Shown one piece after another: positions 218 through 17,527 of a stretch of DNA of 64,000 bases. Both the position numbers and the translations under genes were made by a program. The stretch's first letter is position 1. Each line of letters begins with the position of its first letter. The notes under the pieces were generated by a model. It did not search any database, was not told the DNA's origin, and worked only from the letters and a program-made list of their open reading frames with translations. This DNA is from Actinoplanes ianthinogenes (GTDB taxonomy: Bacteria > Actinomycetota > Actinomycetes > Mycobacteriales > Micromonosporaceae): assembly GCF_018324205.1 (NCBI RefSeq), contig NZ_AP023356.1, forward strand, positions 186,001-250,000. Reading direction: 5' to 3'.

Positions 218-1009
218 TCACCGAGTTCCGATGATCACCCGCCCGGGGCTGGTCCGCCCGTCCACCGACGCCCACAACCGCAGACACCCGAGCACCATCC
301 CCGGCGGACCGATCATCGCCGCGTCGTCCCTGGTCATCCCGGAGGCGAGGTCAGCGAACCGCCCACTGAGCTCGGTCACCCGGGCCCCGGGCACCGCCGC
401 GGCCGCCCGGAACACCTCGTCCCGCACCCGAGTGGTCAGCCCCGCCCACCAGGTGCCGGGCGCCGCCGGCGGCCGATGCACCACCGAGCAGAGCGCCTCG
501 TCCACGTCCAGCAGCGCGAACAGCCGCTCCCGCGGATCCGCCGCCCGGCCGTACCGCTGCATCCGCTCCAGCAGCTCAGCCCGATAACCTTCCACCGTCG
601 CCGGCTGGTCGAACCGCCCCGCCGCCATCCCGTCCCGGGTAGGCAGCAGATCCACCAGCTCCCCGTCCCGCTCCGCCACCGCGAGCACCTGAGCGGCCAG
701 GACCACCAACGGATGCTCCTGTCCGAACGCCGAGACCAGGTCCGCGGGCAGCGGCGCCGACGGGTCCAGGCGCAGCCCGGGGCGGCCGGTGCTCGGGTCG
801 TACGGAAAAAGGATCTCCCGCTCCCCCAGACTCCGCACGTCGTCCCACAACCCGTCCCCCAGCAGCGAGGCCAGGTCCCGGCGCAGCAGAGCGGCCGCCG
901 GATGCTCCGGCCCGGCGTCCTCGATCGCCCGGTCGAGCCCGAGCAGATACCCCCGCACCACCGCCCGGTACGCCGGATCCTCCAGCAGTTCCCGCAGCTG
1001 CTGATACAT
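218..1009 (-). CDS. Uncharacterised 263-264 aa protein, third gene of the GTPase/Hsp70 operon
   Basis: I do not recognise a family. The product is soluble, helix-rich and acidic in its first half, with no signal peptide, membrane segment or catalytic motif that I can see; it has motifs such as DDVRSLGEREILFPYD and a conserved-looking DVDEALCSVVHRP. The ATG at 1009-1007 shares a base with the TGA of the Hsp70-like gene (1011-1009), and a GTG directly upstream (1012-1010) would give one extra residue and a GTGA overlap. Either way translation is coupled to the upstream gene, so the protein very probably works with the Hsp70-like ATPase and the GTPase, as adaptor or third subunit. That role is inference from position only. 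Confidence 0.75.
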   Translation of the reverse strand: MYQQLRELLEDPAYRAVVRGYLLGLDRAIEDAGPEHPAAALLRRDLASLLGDGLWDDVRSLGEREILFPYDPSTGRPGLRLDPSAPLPADLVSAFGQEHPLVVLAAQVLAVAERDGELVDLLPTRDGMAAGRFDQPATVEGYRAELLERMQRYGRAADPRERLFALLDVDEALCSVVHRPPAAPGTWWAGLTTRVRDEVFRAAAAVPGARVTELSGRFADLASGMTRDDAAMIGPPGMVLGCLRLWASVDGRTSPGRVIIGTR

Positions 1010-4000
1010 CACTGCTCGCCGTTGTACGGATCGGAGCTCTCGTCCTTCTCCGCACCCGGATCCATCGGCGTGGAGTACACCGCACCCTTGTGCTCGTCCA
1101 TCTCGGCCAGGCTCCGGGCCCGCAGATAGTCCGGTTTCCCGGCCTGCACCCGCAGCACCCCGGCGTCGTCGAGCGTCGCGTACCAGTCTCCCGCGTGGTT
1201 GCGGGCCGGCAGCGTGCCCAGCGCCTCGACCCGGTCCCCGTCGCGCAGGAAGAACGTCCAGCCGTCCCGGCCCGGTGCCGGCAGCGGCTCCGGGCTCACC
1301 ACCCCGGCGCGGAACTCACCGGTCAGCGACTGCTCGGCGGCGAACTCCTCGGTCAGCTCGACCGGTTGCAGGGTGTCGTCGCGGCGGAAGACCGGCAGCT
1401 GCACCAGGTCGTCGCCGGCGCCGTTGCGCAGCATGATCCGCCCGGCGACCTCCGCGATGACCGGCGTCTTCCCGCGGGTGGACAGCATCGAGGCGAGCCG
1501 GCCCGCCGGCGCCAGCAGTTCCAGGCCACCGACGGCCGGGACCAGATAGGTCGGGGTCGGATCGGCCTCGGCCGGGCGTTCCTCGCCCCGGTCCCGCCAC
1601 AGGTGCAGGGTCAGCTCGAGGGTCTGATCGATCTCCAGGTTGGTCTGGATGCCGGCCAGCCACTCCACCCGGGACGGGTCGATGTTGAGGTTGAGGGCGT
1701 CCAGGGCCTCCTGCGCCGGCCGGTACTTCTGTTTGCGGACCGTGTCGGACAGGTCGTAGGCGCCCCACTGCTTGCCGGCCGTGTCGCCGTCGATCACCCG
1801 GTTGATCAGCACGGTCCGGCTCAGCGGGCCCAGGTAGGTTCGTCGGCTGACGGTGCCGTCCGGGCGGACCTGGTCGAACGGATCGTTGGCGTGCAGCACC
1901 GGGTACGGCTGGCTGTGCCGGGTGACGCTGAACGACGCCGGCAGTGTCTGGAAGATGTTCTGCACGTCGACGGTGATCTCGGTGGCGCCCCGGGTGACGA
2001 TGGTCAGCGCGTCCCGGTTGTGCGCGGCGAGCCGCCGCATCCGCTCCACCCAGGCGGCCCCGATCGAGGTGGCGCTCTTGGCGCTGCGCAGGTCGACGAC
2101 GAGCGCCGCCGGATTCCACTCGATCACCGCCTCGTCGGCGGCCGCGGCCGCGAACTCCTCCGCGATCACCTGCTCGACCAGCGGCATCCGGCTGGCCCGG
2201 CCGGTCAGGATCAGCCGGTCGAGCGGCTGCGGGTTGCCCTGGAAACGGCTGTGCACCAGGCCGATCGCGAGTTTGGCGACCTGCCGCAGCGCGGGGCGGG
2301 CGATCTGCTCGAACAGCTCCGGCCGCAGCACCAGCGGCACGGGCAGGCTCGCGAGCAGCCGGTCGGCGGCCTCCGGGTCGGTGCCGGTGGCCTTCGCCAT
2401 CGAGCGCAGCACCGGCGCCAGCCGCTCCGCGGTCAGCTCGAACGGCCGGCCGCCGCCCAGTTCGCCGGTCTTGGCCTGCTCGGCGAGCCGCCACAGCAGG
2501 TGAAAGGTGGCCCGGCTCTCCCGCCGGTCCTTCCAGTGGGTCGGCGCGGCCAGCTCTGCGGCCCTGCGGTGCGGCAGGTCCAGCCGGGAGTTCTGCGCCC
2601 AGCCGGCGCCGCCCCGCAGGTGGTGCAGCTCCTCCTCGATCAGCGCGCCGGGCCGGTACCGGTCGTCGGTCCAGAGCGCGTTGTTCCGGTTCTCGAACTT
2701 GTCGATGCGCCGCACCGCGTCGTCCAGCCAGCTGCGGCCGTCCGGCAGCGGTCCGGCCTGGAGCAGCGCGTCGGCGAGCACCGCCTTGATCCAGTGGTAG
2801 ACGCCGAGCGTCAGGTAGTCGCCGCCGCGGTGCTCGCGCCCGTTGGTGCCGCGCAGCGTCGGCACCACCTTGTAGACCTTGCCCTGCAGGTGCTCGGGCA
2901 CCCGCAGACCGACCGGCGAGACGTCGTAGAGGTCGAAGGTGAACAGCGCGATGTCGGTGGTTCCGCCGCCGATGTCGATGACCAGGACGTTTTCGGTACG
3001 CGCGGCCGGGTTCCCGGTCGGCCGCATCCGCGCCCGCAGCGCCTCCACCCCCACCTCCAGGTGGCTGCCCAGCTCCCGCATCAGGAAGAAGAACGCCACC
3101 GCCACCGCCTCGTCGTAGGTGATGGTGACCTCGGTGATCCCGGCCGCCTCGCTGACCAGGTCGCGCAGCTTGCGCCGGACCGCGCCCGGCGCCGCGGTGG
3201 GGTAGGTGACGACCACCTTGTTGATCGGCCGGTGGTCCATCCCCTCGGTCTGCCCGGCGTACTTGTTCGCCTGGTCGACGAGCTGCGCGATGGCCCGGGC
3301 GATCACCTCGTCGGTCCGGATCCCGCGTTCCTCCAGCGCCTGCGCCTCGGACCGGCCGAGATGCCGTTTCAGTCCGGTGAGCACCAGTGACTCGTCGCCG
3401 GCGGCGGTCACCGTCAGCGGCCGGCCGAGCCGGACGCTCAGCACGCCGTCGGTCCGGCTCACCTCGACGGTGCTGTCGATGATCGGCTCGCCGCCCGGGC
3501 CGAGCGGCACCTCGTGCAGCTGCGACCGGTCCGGGGCCGGTGCCCGGAACACCTCGCCGTACGCCGTCTGGATCCGGTCGGCCAGCCACTCGCCCAGCGG
3601 CGGCGGCAGGGCCGGCTGGCTGGTGTCCAGGGTGAGCAGCACCTGGTGCAGCAGCGGTGTCTCGTCGCCGCGTTCGCGTTCCAGCGCCCAGATCAGCTGG
3701 TCGACGGTGCGTGCCCCGGTGTCCGGCAGGCAGCGCGCCGCGACGTCGCCGCGCAGCCGGTCCCAGGCGGCGCTCACCCGGTCCCGGGGGTCCGGCCGGG
3801 ACCGCAGCAGCGCCACGACCTCGTCGCGCAGCACCGCGGCCTGCGACGCGGGCAGCACCGTGATCGGGAACAGCCACTGGTCCCAGAGCGTGACCGTGGA
3901 CGCGGTGGTGCCGAAGTCGACGGCGAGCACCCCGTGGTGGAATCGGGGCTCCTCGTCCGTCGGCGGCTCCGGCACGACCGAGGCGCGCAGCACGAAACCG

Positions 4001-4359
4001 ATCGACGCGGCGACGTGGTGGGCGGCCCACTTGCCGTCCGGCATCCGCTCGTGGAAGAACGCGGTCACCCGGACCGTGGCCGCCGCCGCCCCGCCCCACT
4101 CGACGGTTTCGCCGGGCAGCACGATCCGGCCGGGCAGTTCCCGCGAGCCGACACCCCAGCCCTTGGCGAGCCGGTCGGCGAGGGCCTGGTCGACGTCACC
4201 GGCCGCGGCTTCGACGCCGAGCAGCCAGACCGGGCCGTCGACCGGTTCGACCGTCAGGTCGGGCAGGGTCACCCGGCCGCCGACGACGGTCACCGGCAGG
4301 TCTGAAACGTCGGTGGCGGCGGGCCGGCCGTCGCCGCCGATTCCGATGCGCACCGGCAT
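1009..4359 (-). CDS. Large Hsp70/actin-fold ATPase, SrfB-like (1116 aa)
   Basis: The protein carries the Hsp70/actin ATPase signature in an unusual frame. Residues 1-140 are a family-specific N-terminal domain. The phosphate-1 motif AVDFGTTAS is at about 147-155, a connect-type segment KVVVTYPTAAPGAVRRKL at 381-398, the phosphate-2 motif IDIGGGTTD at 461-469, and an adenosine-type motif LILTGRASRMPLVEQV lies further on. More than 300 residues follow, with no canonical DnaK substrate-binding domain recognisable. At 1116 residues it is much longer than DnaK (about 640) and closer to the SrfB (COG4457) group of putative virulence factors. The start ATG (4359-4357) overlaps the TAA of the GTPase gene (4361-4359) by one base, so the two are translationally coupled. 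The frame stays open upstream of this start, but that part is low-complexity shadow of the GTPase gene. Function is unknown; ATP-dependent remodelling of a partner is inference. Confidence 0.82.
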   Translation of the reverse strand: MPVRIGIGGDGRPAATDVSDLPVTVVGGRVTLPDLTVEPVDGPVWLLGVEAAAGDVDQALADRLAKGWGVGSRELPGRIVLPGETVEWGGAAAATVRVTAFFHERMPDGKWAAHHVAASIGFVLRASVVPEPPTDEEPRFHHGVLAVDFGTTASTVTLWDQWLFPITVLPASQAAVLRDEVVALLRSRPDPRDRVSAAWDRLRGDVAARCLPDTGARTVDQLIWALERERGDETPLLHQVLLTLDTSQPALPPPLGEWLADRIQTAYGEVFRAPAPDRSQLHEVPLGPGGEPIIDSTVEVSRTDGVLSVRLGRPLTVTAAGDESLVLTGLKRHLGRSEAQALEERGIRTDEVIARAIAQLVDQANKYAGQTEGMDHRPINKVVVTYPTAAPGAVRRKLRDLVSEAAGITEVTITYDEAVAVAFFFLMRELGSHLEVGVEALRARMRPTGNPAARTENVLVIDIGGGTTDIALFTFDLYDVSPVGLRVPEHLQGKVYKVVPTLRGTNGREHRGGDYLTLGVYHWIKAVLADALLQAGPLPDGRSWLDDAVRRIDKFENRNNALWTDDRYRPGALIEEELHHLRGGAGWAQNSRLDLPHRRAAELAAPTHWKDRRESRATFHLLWRLAEQAKTGELGGGRPFELTAERLAPVLRSMAKATGTDPEAADRLLASLPVPLVLRPELFEQIARPALRQVAKLAIGLVHSRFQGNPQPLDRLILTGRASRMPLVEQVIAEEFAAAAADEAVIEWNPAALVVDLRSAKSATSIGAAWVERMRRLAAHNRDALTIVTRGATEITVDVQNIFQTLPASFSVTRHSQPYPVLHANDPFDQVRPDGTVSRRTYLGPLSRTVLINRVIDGDTAGKQWGAYDLSDTVRKQKYRPAQEALDALNLNIDPSRVEWLAGIQTNLEIDQTLELTLHLWRDRGEERPAEADPTPTYLVPAVGGLELLAPAGRLASMLSTRGKTPVIAEVAGRIMLRNGAGDDLVQLPVFRRDDTLQPVELTEEFAAEQSLTGEFRAGVVSPEPLPAPGRDGWTFFLRDGDRVEALGTLPARNHAGDWYATLDDAGVLRVQAGKPDYLRARSLAEMDEHKGAVYSTPMDPGAEKDESSDPYNGEQ

Positions 4360-6749
4360 TATGCGAACCCCTTGTCCTCGCCCAGCTGCGGGTCGTCCCG
4401 CAGCCGGTCGTCCTCGGTGGTGGTGCGATGCCCGGCCGGGCCGAACACGTCGGTCAGGAAGGCGTCGAGCTCCTGCCCGATCGGCAACCGGTCGGTCAGC
4501 TCGTTGAGCTCCCGGTGCATCACCGCGGTGCGCCGGCGCAGCCGGGCCGCCATCGCGGTGTGCCCGGCCCGGACCGCGCTGGCGGCCAGTTCCCGCCGCA
4601 GCCGCATGACGTAGACCTGGTGCGACTCGATCCGGTCGGCCCGTTCCCGGTGCCACGGCAGCGCCCGGTCGGCCCGCAGCGGGAAGATGTCGGCTGCCGT
4701 GGGTGGCGGGCTGGTCCCGGGCGGCACCTCGAGATCGGACAACCATTTGATCTGTACGGCCCGGCGCAGGTCCTCGAGGACGTCCGGGTGCCTGGCCAGC
4801 GCCGCCTCGCGATGCTCGCCCAGCCCGTCGCGCAGCCGGTCGATCCCGTCGCCGAGCTCGTCGCGCCGCTGGACGAGCCAGTGCAGGATCATGCGGTCGG
4901 CGACGTCGGCGCCGGTCTGCCGGGCCAGCGTCACCGCGTCGGTGAACGGCTGGAGGAAGTCCCTGGTGAGGGTGGCGACCGGGCGCTGGCCGGGCCGGAC
5001 CGTCCGGTCGGTGACCGAGCTGAACAGCCGCTCCCACTCGCGCCAGCCGAAGACCGCGGCGGTGACCGCCCGCTGGATCTCGGCGGCCCCGGTCCGCCCG
5101 GACGCGAGCGTGAACGACGGTGCGAAGACGTCGACCGCGCAGCGCCGTGCCGAGGTGGCCGCCGCCGCCTTGGCCGCGGTGACCAAGTCGCGGAACGCGT
5201 ACATCGGGGAGGCCGCCGACTCGGCCCGGCGGTCGAGCTCCTCCTCCAGTTGCTGCCTCGCCGCGCCGGCCAGCTCGCGCAGCTCCGCCAGGTGCGGGTG
5301 GATCCGGCTGCGTTTCTGCGCCAGCCCGTGCTGCTCGGCGTGCCGCGTCACCAGCCGCCGCAGCCGGCCGAGCCCGCCGTCCTGCGCGTAGTCCCGCAGC
5401 GGCCCGGCGATCCCCTGTCCACCCGGGACCCGTCCGGCGATCTGTCCCCACGCGGCCGCCGCCTGCCGCAGCGTCGCCCGCCACTCCCCCGGGTCCCGGT
5501 GCGCCGGTGGCCGGATCGGCGGTGGCCGGTCCGCGTCGCCGAGCGCCCAGGCGGTCGCCACCGACACGATCGCCGTACCGTCACCGTCCTCCGAGGTGGC
5601 CCGTTCCGCCTCCCGCCAGAGTGCCTTCAACCCGGTCAGGTGCGGATGGCCGACGATGTCCGCGCTGCTCAGCGGCGCCCGGTCGGTGGCCAGCTCGGGC
5701 GCCGACTCCTCCAGCCGGTCGAACCGGCTGATCAGCGCGAGGACCGCGTCGCGCCGCTTGGCCGGGCCGCCCTGCTGCCCGTCCTCGTGGTCGAGCTGGG
5801 CGAAGTCCATCCGGATCCGGCCCGGGTCGCTGGCGTCCGGCCGTTCCGGATCGATCAGCAGCATGATCGTGTTGAGCCGGGGCAGCGTGTGCCGGAGCAG
5901 GAACCGGTCGCGCATCTCGGACGGCGACGCGCCGCGCCCCGGGAAGTCGAGCAGCACCACGTCGTCGTCGACCCGGTGCCGTTCGAAGGGCCAGTACCGG
6001 GCCGGCACCCGCACGGTCACCGACACCCGGTCGACCAGGGACGCGGTCGAGCGCAGGAACTCCGCGTCCACCTGGTCGACCTGGACCGGCCGGGCCGGGG
6101 GCAGCTCCCAGCCCGGCACGTGCCCGGGTGGGCGGGCCACGATCGGCAGCAGGCCTTCGCGTACGGTCGCCCAGTCCAGCCGCAGCGGCGCACCGGTCAC
6201 CAGCCACGGATAGGACACCGCCGCGTCCCGCAGCCCGATCAGTTCCCGGACCGGCACCCGCAGGTCCTCGACGTCCCAGGCGACCCGCCGGCACCAGTCG
6301 CTGATCTGCTCCCAGTCGTCGCCGCCCGGCTCGGCCAGCCCGTACTTGCGGGCGTCCGCGGCGAGCGTGCGCAGCATCGCGTCCCGGCAGGCGGCCAGGG
6401 CCGGCCCGTCGAAGTAGCGCACCGCCACCGGGTCCTGCACCCGGGTCGGCCCGTCGCCCGGGTCCACCACCGGGTGCAGCGCGGTGATGTTGCCGGTGGT
6501 CGCGTTCGCGGTGGCGGGCAGCAGGCCGGGATCGCCGAGCAGCGCGCCCAGCAACACCGATTTCCCGGTGGTGAACTGCCCGACGAACGCGACGGTGACC
6601 GGCTCGGCCGCGGCCGCGAGCACCCGCTGCCGGGCCTTCTCGATCCGGTCGGCGAGGTCCGGGTCGAGCAGGACACGTTCCGCGAGCACCGCGTCGGCCG
6701 TTTCCACGGCTTCGGCACGCATGGCCTTGATGGCCTGGCTGTCGGTCAT
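4359..6749 (-). CDS. Dynamin-like GTPase, SrfC-like (796 aa)
   Basis: A P-loop GTPase leads the operon. G1 is GQFTTGKS at residues 57-64, preceded by a hydrophobic strand. A G2-like NATTGNIT lies near 82-89, and G3 is DFPG at 268-271 inside DDDVVLLDFPGRGA. A G4-like segment ISRFD follows near 340 in place of the usual N/TKxD. The remainder is long and helical, as in dynamin-like proteins and the SrfC (COG4458) putative virulence factors. There is no signal peptide or obvious membrane anchor. I chose the ATG at 6749 because the residues before it (back to 6818) look non-coding and AT-rich; no strong ribosome binding site is visible. The gene is followed without a gap by the Hsp70-like ATPase. 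A membrane- or complex-remodelling role is inference. Confidence 0.8.
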   Translation of the reverse strand: MTDSQAIKAMRAEAVETADAVLAERVLLDPDLADRIEKARQRVLAAAAEPVTVAFVGQFTTGKSVLLGALLGDPGLLPATANATTGNITALHPVVDPGDGPTRVQDPVAVRYFDGPALAACRDAMLRTLAADARKYGLAEPGGDDWEQISDWCRRVAWDVEDLRVPVRELIGLRDAAVSYPWLVTGAPLRLDWATVREGLLPIVARPPGHVPGWELPPARPVQVDQVDAEFLRSTASLVDRVSVTVRVPARYWPFERHRVDDDVVLLDFPGRGASPSEMRDRFLLRHTLPRLNTIMLLIDPERPDASDPGRIRMDFAQLDHEDGQQGGPAKRRDAVLALISRFDRLEESAPELATDRAPLSSADIVGHPHLTGLKALWREAERATSEDGDGTAIVSVATAWALGDADRPPPIRPPAHRDPGEWRATLRQAAAAWGQIAGRVPGGQGIAGPLRDYAQDGGLGRLRRLVTRHAEQHGLAQKRSRIHPHLAELRELAGAARQQLEEELDRRAESAASPMYAFRDLVTAAKAAAATSARRCAVDVFAPSFTLASGRTGAAEIQRAVTAAVFGWREWERLFSSVTDRTVRPGQRPVATLTRDFLQPFTDAVTLARQTGADVADRMILHWLVQRRDELGDGIDRLRDGLGEHREAALARHPDVLEDLRRAVQIKWLSDLEVPPGTSPPPTAADIFPLRADRALPWHRERADRIESHQVYVMRLRRELAASAVRAGHTAMAARLRRRTAVMHRELNELTDRLPIGQELDAFLTDVFGPAGHRTTTEDDRLRDDPQLGEDKGFA

Positions 6750-6914: not shown

Positions 6915-7826
6915 TCAGAACACGGTCGCCCAGTCGTCGCGCATGCTGACGATCGTCCAGCCCTGCCGCCCCGCCTCGGTCAGCGCCAGCTCGGCACCGG
7001 CGACGTAGTCGAACTCCCGCTCGGCGTCGTCGTGCTTGAGCAGGAGACGCAGGCTGGGCCGGTCCGGGTGCTGGGCGAAGCCGAGCATGGCGATGTCGCC
7101 GTTGGAGTTGCCCGCGGCGAGCAGCGGGCGGCGTCCGGTGCGGCTCCAGATCCGGACCGGCTTCTCCGGGCCGTCGTCGAGGTAATCGGCTTCGGCACGG
7201 CGCACGATCGTCCCGCCCCGCTCGTCGGGCCGGTACTCGATGGCGACCGTGCTGCCGATCACCCGCTCGCGCGGGATGCCGTACACCTCCTGGCTGATCG
7301 GACGCACGAAGTCACGGCCGCCCCCGGAGACGATGTAGCTGGTGAATCCGTTGCCGGCGAGGTGGTCGAGCAGCTCGATCATCGGCGCGTAGGCACACCG
7401 CAGGTACTCGCGGTCGAGCGTCGGATGCCTGGTCTTGCGCAGGAAACGCTCGGACTGCTCCTCGAAATCCTCGACGGTGATCCCGTCGTAGGCCGCGAGG
7501 ATGCCGGCGGCGAGCAACCGGACGTTGCGGTCGTTGCCGGCGTAGTGCTCGGCCAGCACGGCGGCGAGCCAGGCGTGGTCCTGCTCGTACGCGGCCTGCC
7601 ACGGCTGGCGGTCACGCAGCGCCGGGTCGGTCTCGGCCATCCGGGTCAGCCGCCGCAGGATGAAGTCCAGCTGGATCGGGATCGGTTTCTCGCACCACAG
7701 GGTCCCGTCGTTGTCGAAGACCGCCACCCGCTCCTCGACCGGCACCTCGGCCGCCACGCTCCGGACGAAGTCCAGGACGGCTCGTCTCGCGTCCCCGTCC
7801 CGCCAACTCGCCAGCGCTCTCGTCAC
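6915..7826 (-). CDS. HAD-superfamily phosphatase
   Basis: Haloacid-dehalogenase-type phosphohydrolase of about 303 residues. Motif I is VAVFDNDGT (DNDGT at residues 38-42 from this start), motif II is IVSGGGRDF, and motif IV lies in AAGNSNGDIAML, where the GNSNGD acidic loop binds the magnesium. A large cap of about 130 residues lies between motifs I and II, which fits the phosphoserine-phosphatase-like class with a C1 cap. No signal peptide is seen. The start used is the GTG at 7826-7824, just ahead of conserved-looking sequence; an upstream GTG at 7886 would add 20 Pro/Arg-rich residues and cannot be excluded. It diverges from the arylsulfatase gene, and the shared region suggests a joint role in releasing sulfate and phosphate esters (inference). 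Confidence 0.8.
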   Translation of the reverse strand: MTRALASWRDGDARRAVLDFVRSVAAEVPVEERVAVFDNDGTLWCEKPIPIQLDFILRRLTRMAETDPALRDRQPWQAAYEQDHAWLAAVLAEHYAGNDRNVRLLAAGILAAYDGITVEDFEEQSERFLRKTRHPTLDREYLRCAYAPMIELLDHLAGNGFTSYIVSGGGRDFVRPISQEVYGIPRERVIGSTVAIEYRPDERGGTIVRRAEADYLDDGPEKPVRIWSRTGRRPLLAAGNSNGDIAMLGFAQHPDRPSLRLLLKHDDAEREFDYVAGAELALTEAGRQGWTIVSMRDDWATVF

Positions 7827-7939
7827 TCCCCGACGATCAGGCCGGCGGGCGGTCGGCGCCTCACCCGGGCGGGGTGAGGCGGGCACCGGGGCGGCTCCGC
7901 TTGACTGGGCCCGCCACGTAGTCGAACGGGGAGGTCGCG

Positions 7940-9442
7940 ATGCCGGGGGAACGCCCGAACATTCTGGTCGTCTGGGGCGATGACATCGGGATCTCGAACC
8001 TCAGCTGCTACAGCGACGGGCTGATGGGATACCGGACGCCGAACATCGACCGGATCGCCGAGGAGGGTGCCCGGTTCACCGACTACTACGGCGAGCAGAG
8101 CTGCACGGCGGGCCGGGCCGCCTTCATCTGCGGGCAGAACCCGATCCGGACCGGGCTCACCAAGGTGGGCATGCCCGGGGCGACCGTGGGCATCCAGCCG
8201 GAGGACCCGACGATCGCGACGGCGCTCAAGGCGCACGGGTACGCGACCGGCCAGTTCGGCAAGAACCACCTCGGCGACCGCGACGAGCACCTGCCGACCG
8301 TGCACGGCTTCGACGAGTTCTTCGGCAACCTGTACCACCTCAACGCCGAGGAGGAGCCCGAGCAGCAGGACTATCCGCGCCCCGAGGACTTCCCCGAGTT
8401 CCACAAGCGGTTCGGCCCGCGCGGGGTCATCCACTCCTGGGCGGGCAAGGACGGCACCCAGCGCATCGAGGACACCGGCCCGCTGACCCGCAAGCGGATG
8501 GAGACCGTCGACGAGGAGTTCCTCGCCGCCGCGAGCACCTTCATCCGTGACAAGGCCGCCGCCGAGCAGCCGTTCTTCGTCTGGTTCAACTCCACGCACA
8601 TGCATTTCCGCACGCACGTCAAGCCGGAGAGCCGGGGCCAGGCCGGGCGGTGGCAGTCCGATTACCACGACACGATGATCGACCACGACAAGCTGGTCGG
8701 TGACCTGCTCAGGCTGCTCGACGAGCTGGGCATCGCCGACGACACGATCGTGGTCTACTCCACCGACAACGGGCCGCACATGAACACCTGGCCGGACGCC
8801 GGGATGACGCCGTTCCGCGGAGAGAAGAACTCGAACTGGGAGGGCGCCTACCGGGTGCCCGCGGTGGTGCGCTGGCCGGGGCGGATCGCGCCGGGGACGG
8901 TGCTGAACGACATCATGAGCCACGCCGACTGGTTCCCGACGCTGCTCGCCGCCGCCGGGGTGCCGGACATCTCCGGCGCGCTCAGGGCCGGCGCCGACCT
9001 CGACGGCACCCGCTTCCACGTGCACCTCGACGGCCACGACCAGCTCGGCTACCTCACCGGGGAGTCGGCGAGCAGCGCCCGGCAGCACTTCTTCTACGTC
9101 TCCGACGACGGGGACCTGACCGCTGTCCGCTACGGCAACTGGAAGCTGGTCTTCCTGGAGCAGCGGGCCGCCGGCACCCTGCGGGTGTGGGCCGAGCCCT
9201 TCACCGAGCTGCGCGTACCGAAAATCTTCAATCTGCGGACCGATCCCTATGAGCGGGCCGACACCACCTCGAACACCTATTACGACTGGCTGCTCGACCA
9301 CGCCTGGCTGGCCGTGCCGATGCAGGCGTTCGTCTTCGACATGTTGCAGAGCTTCGTCGAGTTCCCGCGCCGGCAGAAGCCGGCGAGTTTCAGCCTGGAA
9401 CAGGTGCTGGCCAAACTCCAGGCCGGGATCCCGAGCGCGTGA
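7940..9442 (+). CDS. Arylsulfatase (type I, formylglycine-dependent)
   Basis: Sulfatase of the alkaline-phosphatase superfamily, 500 residues, hydrolysing organic sulfate esters. The N-terminal metal site is PNILVVWGDDIG. The catalytic sulfatase motif is CTAGR at residues 55-59, which fits the C-x-A/P-x-R code in which the cysteine is oxidised to formylglycine. Further family signatures are GKNHLGDRDEHLPTVHGFD and VVYSTDNGPHMNTWPD, the latter carrying calcium ligands. No signal peptide is visible, so a cytoplasmic location or non-classical export is likely. GGGGAGG lies ahead of the ATG at 7940 and acts as ribosome binding site. The stop codon overlaps the start of the formylglycine-generating enzyme gene, so activating enzyme and substrate are made together. 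Confidence 0.93.
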   Translation: MPGERPNILVVWGDDIGISNLSCYSDGLMGYRTPNIDRIAEEGARFTDYYGEQSCTAGRAAFICGQNPIRTGLTKVGMPGATVGIQPEDPTIATALKAHGYATGQFGKNHLGDRDEHLPTVHGFDEFFGNLYHLNAEEEPEQQDYPRPEDFPEFHKRFGPRGVIHSWAGKDGTQRIEDTGPLTRKRMETVDEEFLAAASTFIRDKAAAEQPFFVWFNSTHMHFRTHVKPESRGQAGRWQSDYHDTMIDHDKLVGDLLRLLDELGIADDTIVVYSTDNGPHMNTWPDAGMTPFRGEKNSNWEGAYRVPAVVRWPGRIAPGTVLNDIMSHADWFPTLLAAAGVPDISGALRAGADLDGTRFHVHLDGHDQLGYLTGESASSARQHFFYVSDDGDLTAVRYGNWKLVFLEQRAAGTLRVWAEPFTELRVPKIFNLRTDPYERADTTSNTYYDWLLDHAWLAVPMQAFVFDMLQSFVEFPRRQKPASFSLEQVLAKLQAGIPSA

Positions 9443-10401
9443 CGGCCGCGGCCACCCCGGCGGCCGGCGCCCTGCCGGACGCCGACCTGAAGTGGATCCC
9501 CGGGGGCACCTTCCGGATGGGCTCCGACGAGCACTATCCCGAGGAGGCGCCGGCCCGCGAGGTCGAGGTCGGCGCGGTCTGGATGGGCCGGACCACGGTG
9601 ACGAACGCCGCCTTCGCCGCGTTCGTCGCCGCGACCGGCTACCTGACCGTCGCCGAACGGCCGCTGGACCCGGCCGACTTCCCGGGCGCCCCGGCGGAGA
9701 ACCTGGTGCCCGGCTCGATGGTGTTCGTCGGTACGCCCGGCCCGGTCGACCTGCGGCACCTGAGCCAGTGGTGGCGCTGGGTGCCGGGCGCGTCCTGGCG
9801 GGCGCCGGAGGGACCGGGCAGCACCGTGGACGGGCGTGCCGACCATCCGGTGGTGCAGGTCGCGTACGAGGACGCCGAGGCGTACGCGGCGTGGGCCGGT
9901 CTCGCGCTGCCGACCGAGGCGCAGTGGGAGCACGCGGCCCGGGGCGGGCTCGACGGCGCCACCTACACCTGGGGGAACCGCCCGGAGACGGCCGGCCGGC
10001 GGCAGGCGAACTACTGGCACGGCGACTTTCCGTGGCGCGCCGAGAGCGGATATGGGCGTACCGCGCCGGTCGGGTCGTTCCCGCCCAACGGTTACGGCCT
10101 GGCCGACATGGCCGGCAACGTCTGGGAGTGGACCCAGGACTGGTACACCGAGGACCGCTGGGCCGGCCTGTCCTCCTGTTGCCTGCCGCGTGACCCGCGG
10201 GGCGGGCGGCCGGAGCAGAGTTATGACCCGGCCCAGCCGCAGATCCGGGTCCCGCGCCGGGTCATCAAGGGTGGCTCGTTCCTCTGTGCGGACTCCTACT
10301 GCCTGCGGTACCGGCCGGCCGCGCGGCGGCCGCACATGGTCGACACCGGGATGAGTCACCTGGGCTTCCGCTGCGTGGCGCCACCGGTCCCAGCGGCCTA
10401 G
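9439..10401 (+). CDS. Formylglycine-generating enzyme (sulfatase-modifying factor)
   Basis: FGE/SUMF1-family oxidase of 320 residues that converts the sulfatase active-site cysteine to C-alpha-formylglycine using copper and oxygen. The family fold is clear: WIPGGTFRMGSDEHYPEE at the start, HPVVQVAYEDAEAYAAWAG, LPTEAQWEHAARGG, and GLADMAGNVWEWTQDWY. Both redox-active cysteines are present in SFLCADSYCLRYRP (about Cys283 and Cys288), so this is a true FGE and not a FGE-sulfatase-domain lectin or EgtB relative. The GTG start at 9439 overlaps the sulfatase stop (GTGA). The partner is almost certainly the CTAGR cysteine of the upstream enzyme. Confidence 0.94.
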   Translation: MTAAATPAAGALPDADLKWIPGGTFRMGSDEHYPEEAPAREVEVGAVWMGRTTVTNAAFAAFVAATGYLTVAERPLDPADFPGAPAENLVPGSMVFVGTPGPVDLRHLSQWWRWVPGASWRAPEGPGSTVDGRADHPVVQVAYEDAEAYAAWAGLALPTEAQWEHAARGGLDGATYTWGNRPETAGRRQANYWHGDFPWRAESGYGRTAPVGSFPPNGYGLADMAGNVWEWTQDWYTEDRWAGLSSCCLPRDPRGGRPEQSYDPAQPQIRVPRRVIKGGSFLCADSYCLRYRPAARRPHMVDTGMSHLGFRCVAPPVPAA

Positions 10402-14452: not shown

Positions 14453-15063
14453 ACGCCGCCCGCATCACGCACGCGGAGGTTCGCAAGCTTCTGACGCTGC
14501 CCGCGATACGCACCACCACAGTGCTCACCGTGCTCGGCACGCTGCTGCTCGCCACGACCCGGCAGGACGGGATCCGGGTGCTGCAGGTCGTGCAGGTCGG
14601 CTTCCTGGCACTCGGAGTCTTCGCGACCACCCACGAGTTCCAGGCCGGCGGCCAGATCCGCACCACCCTGCTGGCCTCACCCCGGCGGCTGCTCCTCACC
14701 GCGGCGAAAGGGACGGCTCTCGTCACCGTCACGGTTCCGGTCGCCGTCGTTGTCGCCTTGACCGCGACGGTCCCGGCGGGCGACAGCGGTAAGGCGCCCG
14801 CGGCGGTCGTCTACCTCGCGCTCACGTCACTGCTGGCGGCCGCGGTGGGCCTGCTGCTGCGCCACTCGGTCACGGCAGTGGCCGTGCTGCTTCCGGCCTA
14901 TCTGATCGCAGCTCCGATGCTGCGCGCCCACTCACCGGCCTTCTCGGCGTGGCTTCCCGACACCGCCTTGACCGATCCGACACGGGGTGCTGCCGCGCTG
15001 ATCGTCTGGGCGGCTGCGGCCTCGGTTCTGGCCGCTGCGAGGTTCCATTCCCGCGACGCGTAA
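14449..15063 (+). CDS. ABC-2 type permease subunit 2
   Basis: Second, shorter permease of 204 residues. It begins at the GTG 14449-14451 overlapping the previous stop (GTGA) with the same ABC-2 entry helix, ARITHAEVRKLLTLPAIR. About five or six membrane spans follow. Heteromeric permeases are common for this class, so the two subunits probably pair. The open frame extends far upstream, but that part is the shadow of the first permease gene and is rich in Arg/Pro. No terminator is obvious after the stop at 15061-15063. Confidence 0.85.
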   Translation: MNAARITHAEVRKLLTLPAIRTTTVLTVLGTLLLATTRQDGIRVLQVVQVGFLALGVFATTHEFQAGGQIRTTLLASPRRLLLTAAKGTALVTVTVPVAVVVALTATVPAGDSGKAPAAVVYLALTSLLAAAVGLLLRHSVTAVAVLLPAYLIAAPMLRAHSPAFSAWLPDTALTDPTRGAAALIVWAAAASVLAAARFHSRDA

Positions 15064-15381
15064 CTCGCTGATCGTTAAGCCTGCTCCGGCCCTCGCCTAA
15101 AGATCGCGAAGGCCGCCGCAGGTCCCCTGTGGCCGGGCCCGGCACCTCATCACCGCCAGCACCTACCATGCGCGACAAAGCCGCTCCCGCCGACCGGAGT
15201 GCCGCTGCCGTCCCAACCGGTCCGGGCCGAGCGCACCTGGGGCTATCGCCCAAGCCCAAACCACACCGGTCCCAACGCGCGCTCATGCCGAGTTGAGTGC
15301 GCTCAGCCACATCTGGTTGAAGTCCTTATGACGTGGTCGCGACAAGGGGAATTTCGAGTCAAATTTGCCCTCCCTAAGTCG
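15064..15381. other. Intergenic stretch with no recognisable gene
   Basis: 318 bases separate the exporter operon from the convergent GNAT gene. Open frames here lack actinobacterial codon bias. GC falls visibly from about 15290 onward, with runs such as GAATTTCGAGTCAAATTTGC. I see no clear terminator stem or RNA gene. Confidence 0.5.
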
Positions 15382-15825
15382 CTACGGTATGTAACGGCCA
15401 ACGATTCCGGCGGCGACACTGTCCGTAAATCCGCATCGCTCGGCGGCGAAGGACCTGCGCCGCGGTCCCAATCCGTCCCGGTCGTCAATGCTCAGCATTA
15501 GATATCTGAACGACCTGTTGATCATGTGACCCATGAAATAATGCGTCAGCAGCGTACCGGTTCCGCACCCTGAGATGGCGACGGCGACAAGCTCGATCCA
15601 GCCGTAACTCTCCGACGGAAAATCGGCGGGCGCTAGGCTGGCGTACTCCGGATCCGCAGCTGTTCCATAGATGAATCCTGCAACTCCCTGCTCCCCGAGG
15701 GCGACGAAGGCCAAGTCCGAGCCAGCCAGCCCCCCAAGTTCGGGAGTCGTTTCTACCCATCCTCGGTCGATTAGGATTGTTTCAACCTCGTCGACATGTT
15801 CAGATCCGAACGGCGCAATCGTCAT
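15382..15825 (-). CDS. GNAT-type N-acetyltransferase (probable)
   Basis: Protein of 147 residues with a GNAT-like order: a variable N-terminal part, a strand SDLAFVALGEQGVAGFIYG, then YGWIELVAVAISGCGTGTLL, where the Gly-x-Gly-x-Gly-like turn could hold the acetyl-CoA pyrophosphate, and the C-terminal RSFAAERCGFTD that resembles the usual A-x-x-x-Y/F-x-x-x-GF ending. The substrate cannot be inferred. The ATG at 15825 is preferred because the longer version to 15906 has an Arg/His-rich leader. Base composition is lower in GC than flanking genes, which suggests recent acquisition or relaxed selection. Confidence 0.55.
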   Translation of the reverse strand: MTIAPFGSEHVDEVETILIDRGWVETTPELGGLAGSDLAFVALGEQGVAGFIYGTAADPEYASLAPADFPSESYGWIELVAVAISGCGTGTLLTHYFMGHMINRSFRYLMLSIDDRDGLGPRRRSFAAERCGFTDSVAAGIVGRYIP

Positions 15826-16063
15826 AGCCCTATGATGGCATCGGTCCGGTGCGCGCAGAGCTTCTTCTGAGGCATCTCTGTCGTCAAGACCCGTCCAGAC
15901 GGACACCGCTTCAGGGGAATTGCCGGTGTAAGGCGAGCTAAATGGTTGAACGGTTTAGTGTCGTAGCCAGGTTGCTCCATTCAAAGACACTCATTTGCCG
16001 CTGAGTTTGCGCCGGGTGGTGCCGTGAGCATTGCACGGGCATAGGCGTCGATCACTTTGCGGC

Positions 16064-16410
16064 GTCTCGTACACCTCAGGTGGCACGTTCGAACGTGCGG
16101 CGGCGGCCCTCGCCGCGTTCGTCGCGCCGGTGGTGCTCTGCGTGGCCGGAGCGGCCGGGTTGTTCGGCACCGATCAGGTGTGGCAGCGGATCGCGTTCGT
16201 GCCACCGGGTCTGATCGTCGGCGCTGTGTACGGATACCTGGCGGTACCGGCTGCGGATCGTGGACTCGCGGCTGCACTGACGTGCCGTCTTGCGCAGCGG
16301 CAGCGCGCCGCTGGCGGAGGTGAGTGAGGTCGTACCGCATCTGAAGAACTACACGACCGTGGTGCTCACCGGTGCCTCGAACGGAGGCCACCCGTGTAAT
16401 CGGCGCCTAC
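16064..16410 (+). pseudogene. Possible remnant of a membrane-protein gene
   Basis: Codon-biased sequence is spread over different frames. One frame gives two membrane-like segments, ALAAFVAPVVLCVAGAAGLF and RIAFVPPGLIVGAVYGYLAV. Another then continues with LRIVDSRLH, and a third with SAPLAEVSEVVPHLKNYTT before losing coding character. The high third-position GC across the frame changes suggests a decayed gene with at least two frameshifts. I do not recognise the family. The flanks (15826-16063 and 16411-16447) hold nothing I can identify. Confidence 0.35.
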
Positions 16411-16447
16411 CTCCAGGTGAGCCCGGCTGTCCGGATTCCATCCGGGA

Positions 16448-17032
16448 CTAGCTCTGTTTCTCCAGTCCGTTACGCAGCACGTCCGCGGCCCGCCGCACGT
16501 CCGCGCGGACCGTCGCCGGTTGGCCGGGATGGCGGCGCAGGCTCTCGTGCTGCACGCGCCACAGGCCGAGCAGGGCGGCGGCCGTGATCTGCGGTTCCGG
16601 ATCGGCCGGGTCGACGCCGTCGCGGGCCGCCAGCGCCTCGGCCGCCACGGCGACGAACCGGTCCATCATGTCGTTGCGGTAGGCGCGCAGCGATGGCGCC
16701 GCCTCCAGCAACTCGCCGAAGCGCCGGTAGCCCTCCGGGTCGCCGGCGAACCCGTCGAGCTCGGCGTCAAGCAGGCGCAGTGCGGCTTCGATCGGCGTGT
16801 GTCCGGTCGACGCGAGCGCTTCCCGCAGCGCCGTCGTCGTGCCTTCGAGGCGGTCGAGCAGCAGCGCCTCCTTGGTCGGGAAGTAGTTGAACACCGTCTT
16901 CTCCGACACCCCGCACGCCCGCGCCACCTCCGCCACCCGTACGCCGTCGAACCCGCGCTCCACGAACATCCGGGTCGCCGTGTCGGACAGTTGCTGCCGC
17001 ATCTGCCGCTTCTTCTCCTCGCGCAGGCTCAT
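16448..17032 (-). CDS. TetR-family transcriptional regulator
   Basis: TetR repressor of 194 residues. The N-terminal DNA-binding domain (about 10-55) reads LSDTATRMFVERGFDGVRVAEVARACGVSEKTVFNYFPTKE in parts, with the recognition helix VSEKTVFNYF. A helical ligand-binding domain follows. It diverges from the SRPBCC gene at 17084, and two palindromes lie between the start codons at 17043-17073. Autoregulation and repression of the SRPBCC gene is the expected mode. Confidence 0.9.
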   Translation of the reverse strand: MSLREEKKRQMRQQLSDTATRMFVERGFDGVRVAEVARACGVSEKTVFNYFPTKEALLLDRLEGTTTALREALASTGHTPIEAALRLLDAELDGFAGDPEGYRRFGELLEAAPSLRAYRNDMMDRFVAVAAEALAARDGVDPADPEPQITAAALLGLWRVQHESLRRHPGQPATVRADVRRAADVLRNGLEKQS

Positions 17033-17042
17033 GGGCGAATCT

Positions 17043-17073
17043 TACTGCTACAGTATTTTTACAGTGACTGTAA
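17043..17073. promoter_or_regulatory. TetR operator pair between tetR and the SRPBCC gene
   Basis: Two adjacent inverted repeats: TACTG-CTA-CAGTA at 17043-17055 and TTACAGT-G-ACTGTAA at 17059-17073, a perfect 15-base palindrome. They share the ACAGT/ACTGT core. The right copy abuts the SRPBCC ribosome binding site AAGGAG (17072-17077) and the left copy lies 10 bases upstream of the TetR start, so a bound dimer would block both genes. Confidence 0.7.
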
Positions 17074-17083
17074 GGAGACGGTA

Positions 17084-17527
17084 ATGAGCGAGTTCCGGAT
17101 CGTCCGCGACTACCCGCATCCGATCGAGCGCGTCTGGCGCGTGCTCACCGACCCTGAGCTGGTCCCGCGCTGGACCACGACCGGCCAGGGCGGCCGACCC
17201 GAGGGCTTCGCGCCGGTCACGGGCACGAAGTTCCGGTTCATCGCCAAGCCGGTCGCGAGCTGGCGGGGCATCGTCGACTGCGAGGTCCTCGAGGTCGACG
17301 CGCCGGCGCTGCTGCGCTACTCCTGGATCGGCGACGAGGGGGCCACGCCGAGCTTCGTCGCCTACCGCCTCCAGCCGATCGACGGCGGCACGCGCTTCAC
17401 CTGGGAGCACACTGGCTTCACCGGCATCGGCGGCTTCTTCATGTGCCGGCTCCTGCGGTCGGTGCGGGCCAAGATGCTGACCGTGGCGTTACCCACGGTC
17501 CTCGACGATCCCAAGCTCCCGGCCTGA
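17084..17527 (+). CDS. SRPBCC (START/AHSA1-like) domain protein
   Basis: Protein of 147 residues with the activator-of-Hsp90-ATPase/SRPBCC fold: RDYPHPIERVWRVLTDPELVPRW at the start, then SWRGIVDCEVLEVD, LRYSWIGDE and TRFTWEHTGF, ending in a long C-terminal helix with LLRSVRAKMLTVALPTVLDD. The fold binds hydrophobic ligands in a deep cavity; the true ligand is unknown. The ATG at 17084 follows a good ribosome binding site, AAGGAG, seven bases upstream. Regulated by the divergent TetR through the palindromes at 17043-17073. Confidence 0.88.
   Translation: MSEFRIVRDYPHPIERVWRVLTDPELVPRWTTTGQGGRPEGFAPVTGTKFRFIAKPVASWRGIVDCEVLEVDAPALLRYSWIGDEGATPSFVAYRLQPIDGGTRFTWEHTGFTGIGGFFMCRLLRSVRAKMLTVALPTVLDDPKLPA

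Follow-up and report, generated by a model that had tools for sequence, protein, structure and literature searches.

Does a bacterial dynamin-like GTPase have chaperones of its own? The question is raised by three minus-strand genes at positions 218-6749 of a 64,000-nucleotide stretch of Actinoplanes ianthinogenes DNA (the window; positions 186,001-250,000 of the 9,897,806-base single-contig genome GCF_018324205.1, NZ_AP023356.1), which encode a dynamin-like GTPase (gene 1), a large Hsp70-type protein (gene 2) and a former orphan (gene 3). Consecutive gene ends overlap by 1-4 bases, as originally predicted, and both junctions are confirmed: TAATG between genes 1 and 2, and GTGATG between genes 2 and 3, where the overlap is 4 bases from the GTG and 1 base from the ATG. 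The original prediction had also read the operon as a SrfC and SrfB pair joined by a lineage-specific third gene; of this interpretation the relation to SrfB stood, while the SrfC identity and the lineage restriction did not. We tentatively propose, regarding the chances as nearly balanced, that genes 2 and 3 encode a dedicated chaperone pair that would load and dismantle GTPase polymers on the cytoplasmic side of the cell membrane.

Judged by its sequence, gene 1 is firmly assigned as a dynamin-like GTPase, with the likeness lying around the GTPase domain. It is a large GTPase carrying both the G1 (P-loop) and G3 motifs expected of the dynamin superfamily, at the residues first indicated. In Pfam, Dynamin_N matches the window protein just below its cut-off (26.1 bits against 27; expectation value, E, 1e-5), and all 14 aligned P-loop members at E<=0.1 (best 4.9e-10). 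This alignment (A7), which includes the window protein and leaves out six P-loop-less GTPases, contains a conserved G1, a TGN-type switch motif and D-[FL]-P-G, and its profile retrieves SynDLP (Slr0869; 1.6e-6), the GTP-binding protein of 5owv (1.5e-5) and BDLP (1.6e-5) from PDB. SynDLP, BDLP, DynA and LeoA resemble gene 1 in their GTPase motifs and, by profile, around the GTPase domain; the operon differs in joining one GTPase with an Hsp70-type protein and a predicted exchange factor. By contrast, the proposed identity with SrfC found no support: PF10139 (SrfC) has no match to the window protein at E<=1 and weakly matches 3 of the 14 members (best 0.0027), and the profile comparison with SrfC (45%) is confined to the region around the P-loop.

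The Hsp70-type identity of gene 2 is firm. As predicted, both phosphate motifs are complete (DFGTTAS from residue 148, DIGGGTTD from residue 462), and D148, K331, E417, D462 and T467 are invariant in all 42 aligned rows; by motif, we take these to be the counterparts of the catalytic residues in DnaK numbering. A P..G near the C-terminus is kept in 41 of the 42. The HSP70 family of Pfam matches at E 1e-4, and the expected relation to SrfB also held, with PF07520 scoring 46.1 bits against a cut-off of 27.1 (E 2.5e-12) and hhalign returning 96.3% (E 1.5e-9, 158 columns aligned). The Pfam match covers two stretches of the 992-position profile (best 512-629), not most of it. The AlphaFold2 model (predicted local distance difference test, pLDDT, 85.4; predicted template modelling score, pTM, 0.80) confidently predicts Hsp70 nucleotide-binding and substrate-binding beta domains, and its alignment to DnaK, which reaches residue 505, covers the latter domain. 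The DnaK rows in the match list stop at residue 506 or earlier, so that the alpha lid is absent from the list, which is no proof of its absence from the protein. Gene 2 is not a plain DnaK, and no J-domain partner appears in the Pfam matches of the operon's three proteins. We consider it improbable that gene 2 is a self-polymerising ATPase like MreB, with gene 1 as its regulator and the chaperone likeness a mark of ancestry: FtsA (0.0099) and MreB (0.053) profiles match weakly, both under their cut-offs, and a paralogous gene set lies beside a tubulin-like gene (below), but the best listed fold matches of the model are Hsp70 proteins, including the substrate-binding beta domain, which actins lack.

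The three-gene operon is a real, conserved unit. Of 22 loci whose gene 2 belongs to this clade (the shorter relatives at L022-L024 were kept apart), 20 have a recognised gene 1, 19 a recognised gene 3 and 18 the complete triad, in agreement with the predicted co-conservation. Both gene 1 misses (L026 and L071) are cut off by contig ends; gene 3 went unrecognised at L063, L064 and L071, although at L064 an overlapping unrecognised gene stands in its place. Because this gene order is repeated at other loci, with similarly close spacing, the arrangement is not due to chance. Nor is the third gene lineage-specific, as had been supposed, since it occupies the same position at the cyanobacterial loci L025 and L026: Fischerella muscicola carries a complete triad in identical order, and in Rhizonema, where gene 1 is cut, genes 2 and 3 are present. 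The highest listed gene 2 identity apart from the window's own copy is 70%, in Actinoplanes subglobosus. Matches to gene 2 were found in at least 9 of 150 relatives' genomes and at least 15 of 300 genomes of the family (both counts including the window's genome and three genomes with shorter relatives only), at least 7 of 295 genomes of a second genus and at least 2 of 396 in a phylum-wide draw, one being the window's own; the genome sets overlap, and the counts are lower bounds, two candidates having been scored per genome in the family, second-genus and phylum draws. At least nine loci were confirmed by a scan of genome contigs. Separately, gene 2 at L062 (8399-11838; G601) seems to carry a frameshift close to its 3' end, and the shorter gene 1 and gene 2 relatives at L022-L024 adjoin vWA genes at L022 and L024 and a PP2C phosphatase gene at L022.

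The gene 3 family is predicted to possess a GrpE-like C-terminal domain, and the protein is likely, on the strength of this model, to be an exchange factor; a role in exchanging the Hsp70 nucleotide follows from the predicted fold. The fold was predicted for the relative P0002, and the structure list (VIA) places GrpE rows among many unrelated folds of similar Z, one of them ranked above. Profile tests found neither PF01025 nor GrpE profile similarity in the gene 3 family, so that a GrpE recognisable in sequence is not supported and the likeness is kept as a structural lead. Seven proteins were returned by each of two protein searches with gene 3. In the 22-row alignment (A6; P0007, the copies of L017 and L019, and the window's own copies P0001 and P0008 left out), the window protein lacks an internal block of ~85 residues that is kept in some form by all 21 other rows.

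These observations bear on the idea that the operon is an actinobacterial form of SrfABC. In the portion of the Xenorhabdus report consulted (PMC6950479), native polyacrylamide gel electrophoresis and co-immunoprecipitation show SrfA, SrfB and SrfC joined in a heteromeric complex, which is described as cytotoxic; together with the homology of gene 2 to SrfB, this would suit such an equivalence. The two systems do share part of the SrfB nucleotide-binding core and an adjoining GTPase gene. However, the genes run in reverse order, gene 1 stands closer to dynamins than to SrfC, aligning to the latter around the P-loop only, and gene 2 has an extra N-terminal domain beyond its partial match to the SrfB profile. 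Gene 3 was rejected as SrfA (hhalign 0.7%). The SrfA proteins of L027 and L028 have in common a long hydrophobic stretch, and that of L028 has no Pfam match over the cut-off. We regard the equivalence as improbable. SrfB and SrfC are presumably COG4457 and COG4458, as named in the original prediction. At L028, in Pseudomonas defluvii, a vWA-domain gene (14476-17459) lies downstream of srfABC, one gene away, echoing the paralogous triads.

Dynamin-like, Hsp70-type and GrpE genes are also grouped elsewhere. A GrpE search of 12 genomes listed 20 matches, seven of them weak or partial, and at five of these seven (L093-L096, L107) two P-loop GTPases and an Hsp70-type gene accompany the GrpE match, whereas L108 and L109 have an Hsp70-type gene near it and no P-loop GTPase pair. 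Pfam confirms both dynamins and GrpE at L093, and GrpE and Hsp70 at L094 and L095; the remaining assignments at the seven loci rest on motifs. A divergent GrpE and an Hsp70-type protein accompanied by a pair of P-loop GTPases (dynamins where tested) form a recurrent actinobacterial layout, which differs from the window operon in its second GTPase, smaller Hsp70-type protein and Pfam-detectable GrpE. In G069, an Hsp70 gene carrying WD40 repeats and a pair of Dynamin_N genes are found 2.6 kb away from the triad itself.

What can be read directly from the letters is a set of overlapping genes with GTPase motifs, Hsp70 catalytic residues and a conserved order; from these we infer a nucleotide-driven membrane-remodelling machine, as had first been suggested. 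Under the chaperone-pair reading, GTP-loaded protein 1 would assemble on stressed or damaged membrane, protein 2 would bind the assembled protein 1 and spend ATP to remodel it, and protein 3, given its predicted GrpE-like fold, may reset protein 2. In vitro precedent comes from the chloroplast, where HSP70B-CDJ2-CGE1 acts on VIPP1 (PMC10602608, in part). The principle held in common, as proposed, is that an Hsp70 and a GrpE-type factor control a membrane polymer, although the chloroplast system has an ESCRT-III-like substrate, J-protein delivery and no dynamin. The least supported step, a guess, is that the machine might serve membrane surveillance, including slowing of phage-driven lysis; this use is suggested because DynA clusters on membrane and delays phage lysis (PMC8844932, in part).

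A second triad in the same genome (within 416001-436000; L004 7764-18731, or G000:C1 423764-434731) precedes genes for a membrane vWA protein and a tubulin-like protein, the former assigned by Pfam on the L004 protein itself and the latter through its L017 homologue. Its proteins share 34% (gene 2, E 2e-121), 26-28% (gene 1) and 30% (gene 3) identity with those of the window, and its gene 1 has no P-loop. Among 20 GTPases, the P-loop is missing in all six that are tubulin-linked and present in all 14 others, but since the six gene 2 copies form a single clade (100/100; window copy as sister, 100/99; L071 left out of the tree), this represents one loss. All six tubulin-linked gene 2 copies lack the N-terminal beta domain, starting 30-33 residues before the first phosphate motif; judged in this way, the domain is also missing from gene 2 of L064, a locus without the tubulin link. 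A bolder version of the chaperone-pair reading, which strikes us as rather doubtful, would make the operon a self-contained dynamin uncoating machine whose private Hsp70 is served by a GrpE-like factor past sequence likeness; in the L004 branch the dynamin would be a pseudo-GTPase, the tubulin-like GTPase beside the membrane vWA would supply the energy, and the chaperone core would have passed from serving a dynamin to serving a tubulin motor.

The L004 neighbourhood resembles the FtsZl1/vWA/GTPase (Makarova and Koonin 2010) and DO-GTPase systems, whereas at the window locus (L003) no match to a tubulin-like or vWA gene was found. DFPG or DLPG stands in all 14 P-loop members with no Walker B glutamate, unlike DO-GTPases (the exact position of whose glutamate was not seen), and the triad does occur in cyanobacteria, which reportedly have almost no DO-GTPase systems (Kaur et al. 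2020, PMC7159879, in part). Conflict roles are predicted for such related layouts in the same part of that source, and the operon could accordingly be a phage-defence or cell-suicide system in which GTPase and Hsp70 form an infection-sensing switch, as proposed for the GTPase/Hsp70/tubulin conflict systems of multicellular bacteria. The patchy distribution of gene 2 would fit, as would a partial PADLOC LeoA match of gene 1 (3.1e-7; residues 11-73 only, model positions 16-80 of 559), though this is not a full-length LeoA and none of the operon's three proteins matches LeoBC at E<=1.

Defence genes near the triads were compared in 20-kb stretches at 9 of the 14 stand-alone P-loop triads (78 neighbours; L025, L061, L063, L067 and L069 outside the set) and nine same-genome control stretches (117 proteins), with a crude gene caller and proteins >1300 residues omitted. 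Regulators binding cyclic nucleoside monophosphates (cNMP) make up five of the 78 neighbours (Pfam) and lie at four triads, with two such genes at L062; a cyclase-like gene is near the triads of L021 and L062, the PADLOC Pycsar cyclase model matches two neighbours, and single neighbours match LeoA, LeoBC or DpdF models. Yet PADLOC matches are no fewer in the controls (106 families for 117 proteins, against 39 for the 78 neighbours; a coarse measure, families being counted), the 4-5 neighbours that match PycTIR/TIR-effector models probably do so through the cNMP-binding domain they have in common, and the cNMP regulator profile also matches the dnaK region L097 strongly and the control L103 weakly. 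At the window, one defence-like gene was seen, 1.7 kb before the start (the scan did not extend to genes on the right), and gene 2 matched no plasmid or phage record, in collections that may leave out records of this or very near genomes. We consider a defence role unlikely. The defence-like gene before the window start encodes a NACHT-type NTPase with an NNH7 domain (L003 6895-10272; window -5105 to -1728).

Upstream of gene 1 lies a HAD-type hydrolase gene (6915-7886), and the closest genes left of the window start are on the plus strand, opposite to the operon; the three-gene unit therefore stands alone. Genes at 7940-10401 resemble, by eye, a sulfatase and a sulfatase-modifying factor.

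Table 1. Coordinates of the operon's genes and features in the window, and of regulator genes near other triads.
Feature	Position	Strand	Detail
Gene 1, dynamin-like GTPase	4359-6749	minus	796 aa from ATG 6749
Gene 1 P-loop (G1), GQFTTGKS	6558-6581	minus	residues 57-64
Gene 1 G3 motif, DFPG	5937-5948	minus	residues 268-271
Gene 1/gene 2 junction, TAATG	4357-4361	minus	1-base overlap
Gene 2, Hsp70-type protein, SrfB-related	1009-4359	minus	1116 aa
Gene 2 predicted N-terminal beta-rich domain	3985-4359	minus	~residues 1-125; model secondary structure
Gene 2 nucleotide-binding domain (model)	2020-3939	minus	~residues 141-780
Gene 2 substrate-binding beta domain (model)	1051-1992	minus	~residues 790-1103
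Gene 2 conserved C-terminal tail, DPYNGEQ	1012-1032	minus	
Gene 3	218-1012	minus	264 aa from GTG 1012 or 263 aa from ATG 1009
Gene 3 part aligned to GrpE-matching part of P0002	221-550	minus	~residues 154-263; alignment, fold predicted for P0002
CRP-type cNMP-binding regulators/cyclase-like genes	L021 12435-14811; L062 14232-17650; L066 89-1051; L068 16742-17674		

In the open-licence literature (including PMC2875224 and PMC8195603, each drawn on in part), no paper was recognised as describing this operon, and control of a membrane coat is reported for chloroplast Hsp70, whereas none was found for an Hsp70 serving a dynamin. Membrane polymers under Hsp70 control are known chiefly in organelles. 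To our knowledge, it is an open question how bacteria turn off and recycle their dynamins, and the compact operon would make the coupling of dynamin, Hsp70 and predicted exchange factor testable with three purified proteins; the P-loop-less paralogue beside a tubulin-like gene provides a natural experiment on the contribution of the GTPase. Part of the SrfB family, whose only database label is that of a virulence factor, also gains a suggested working principle from the chaperone-pair reading.
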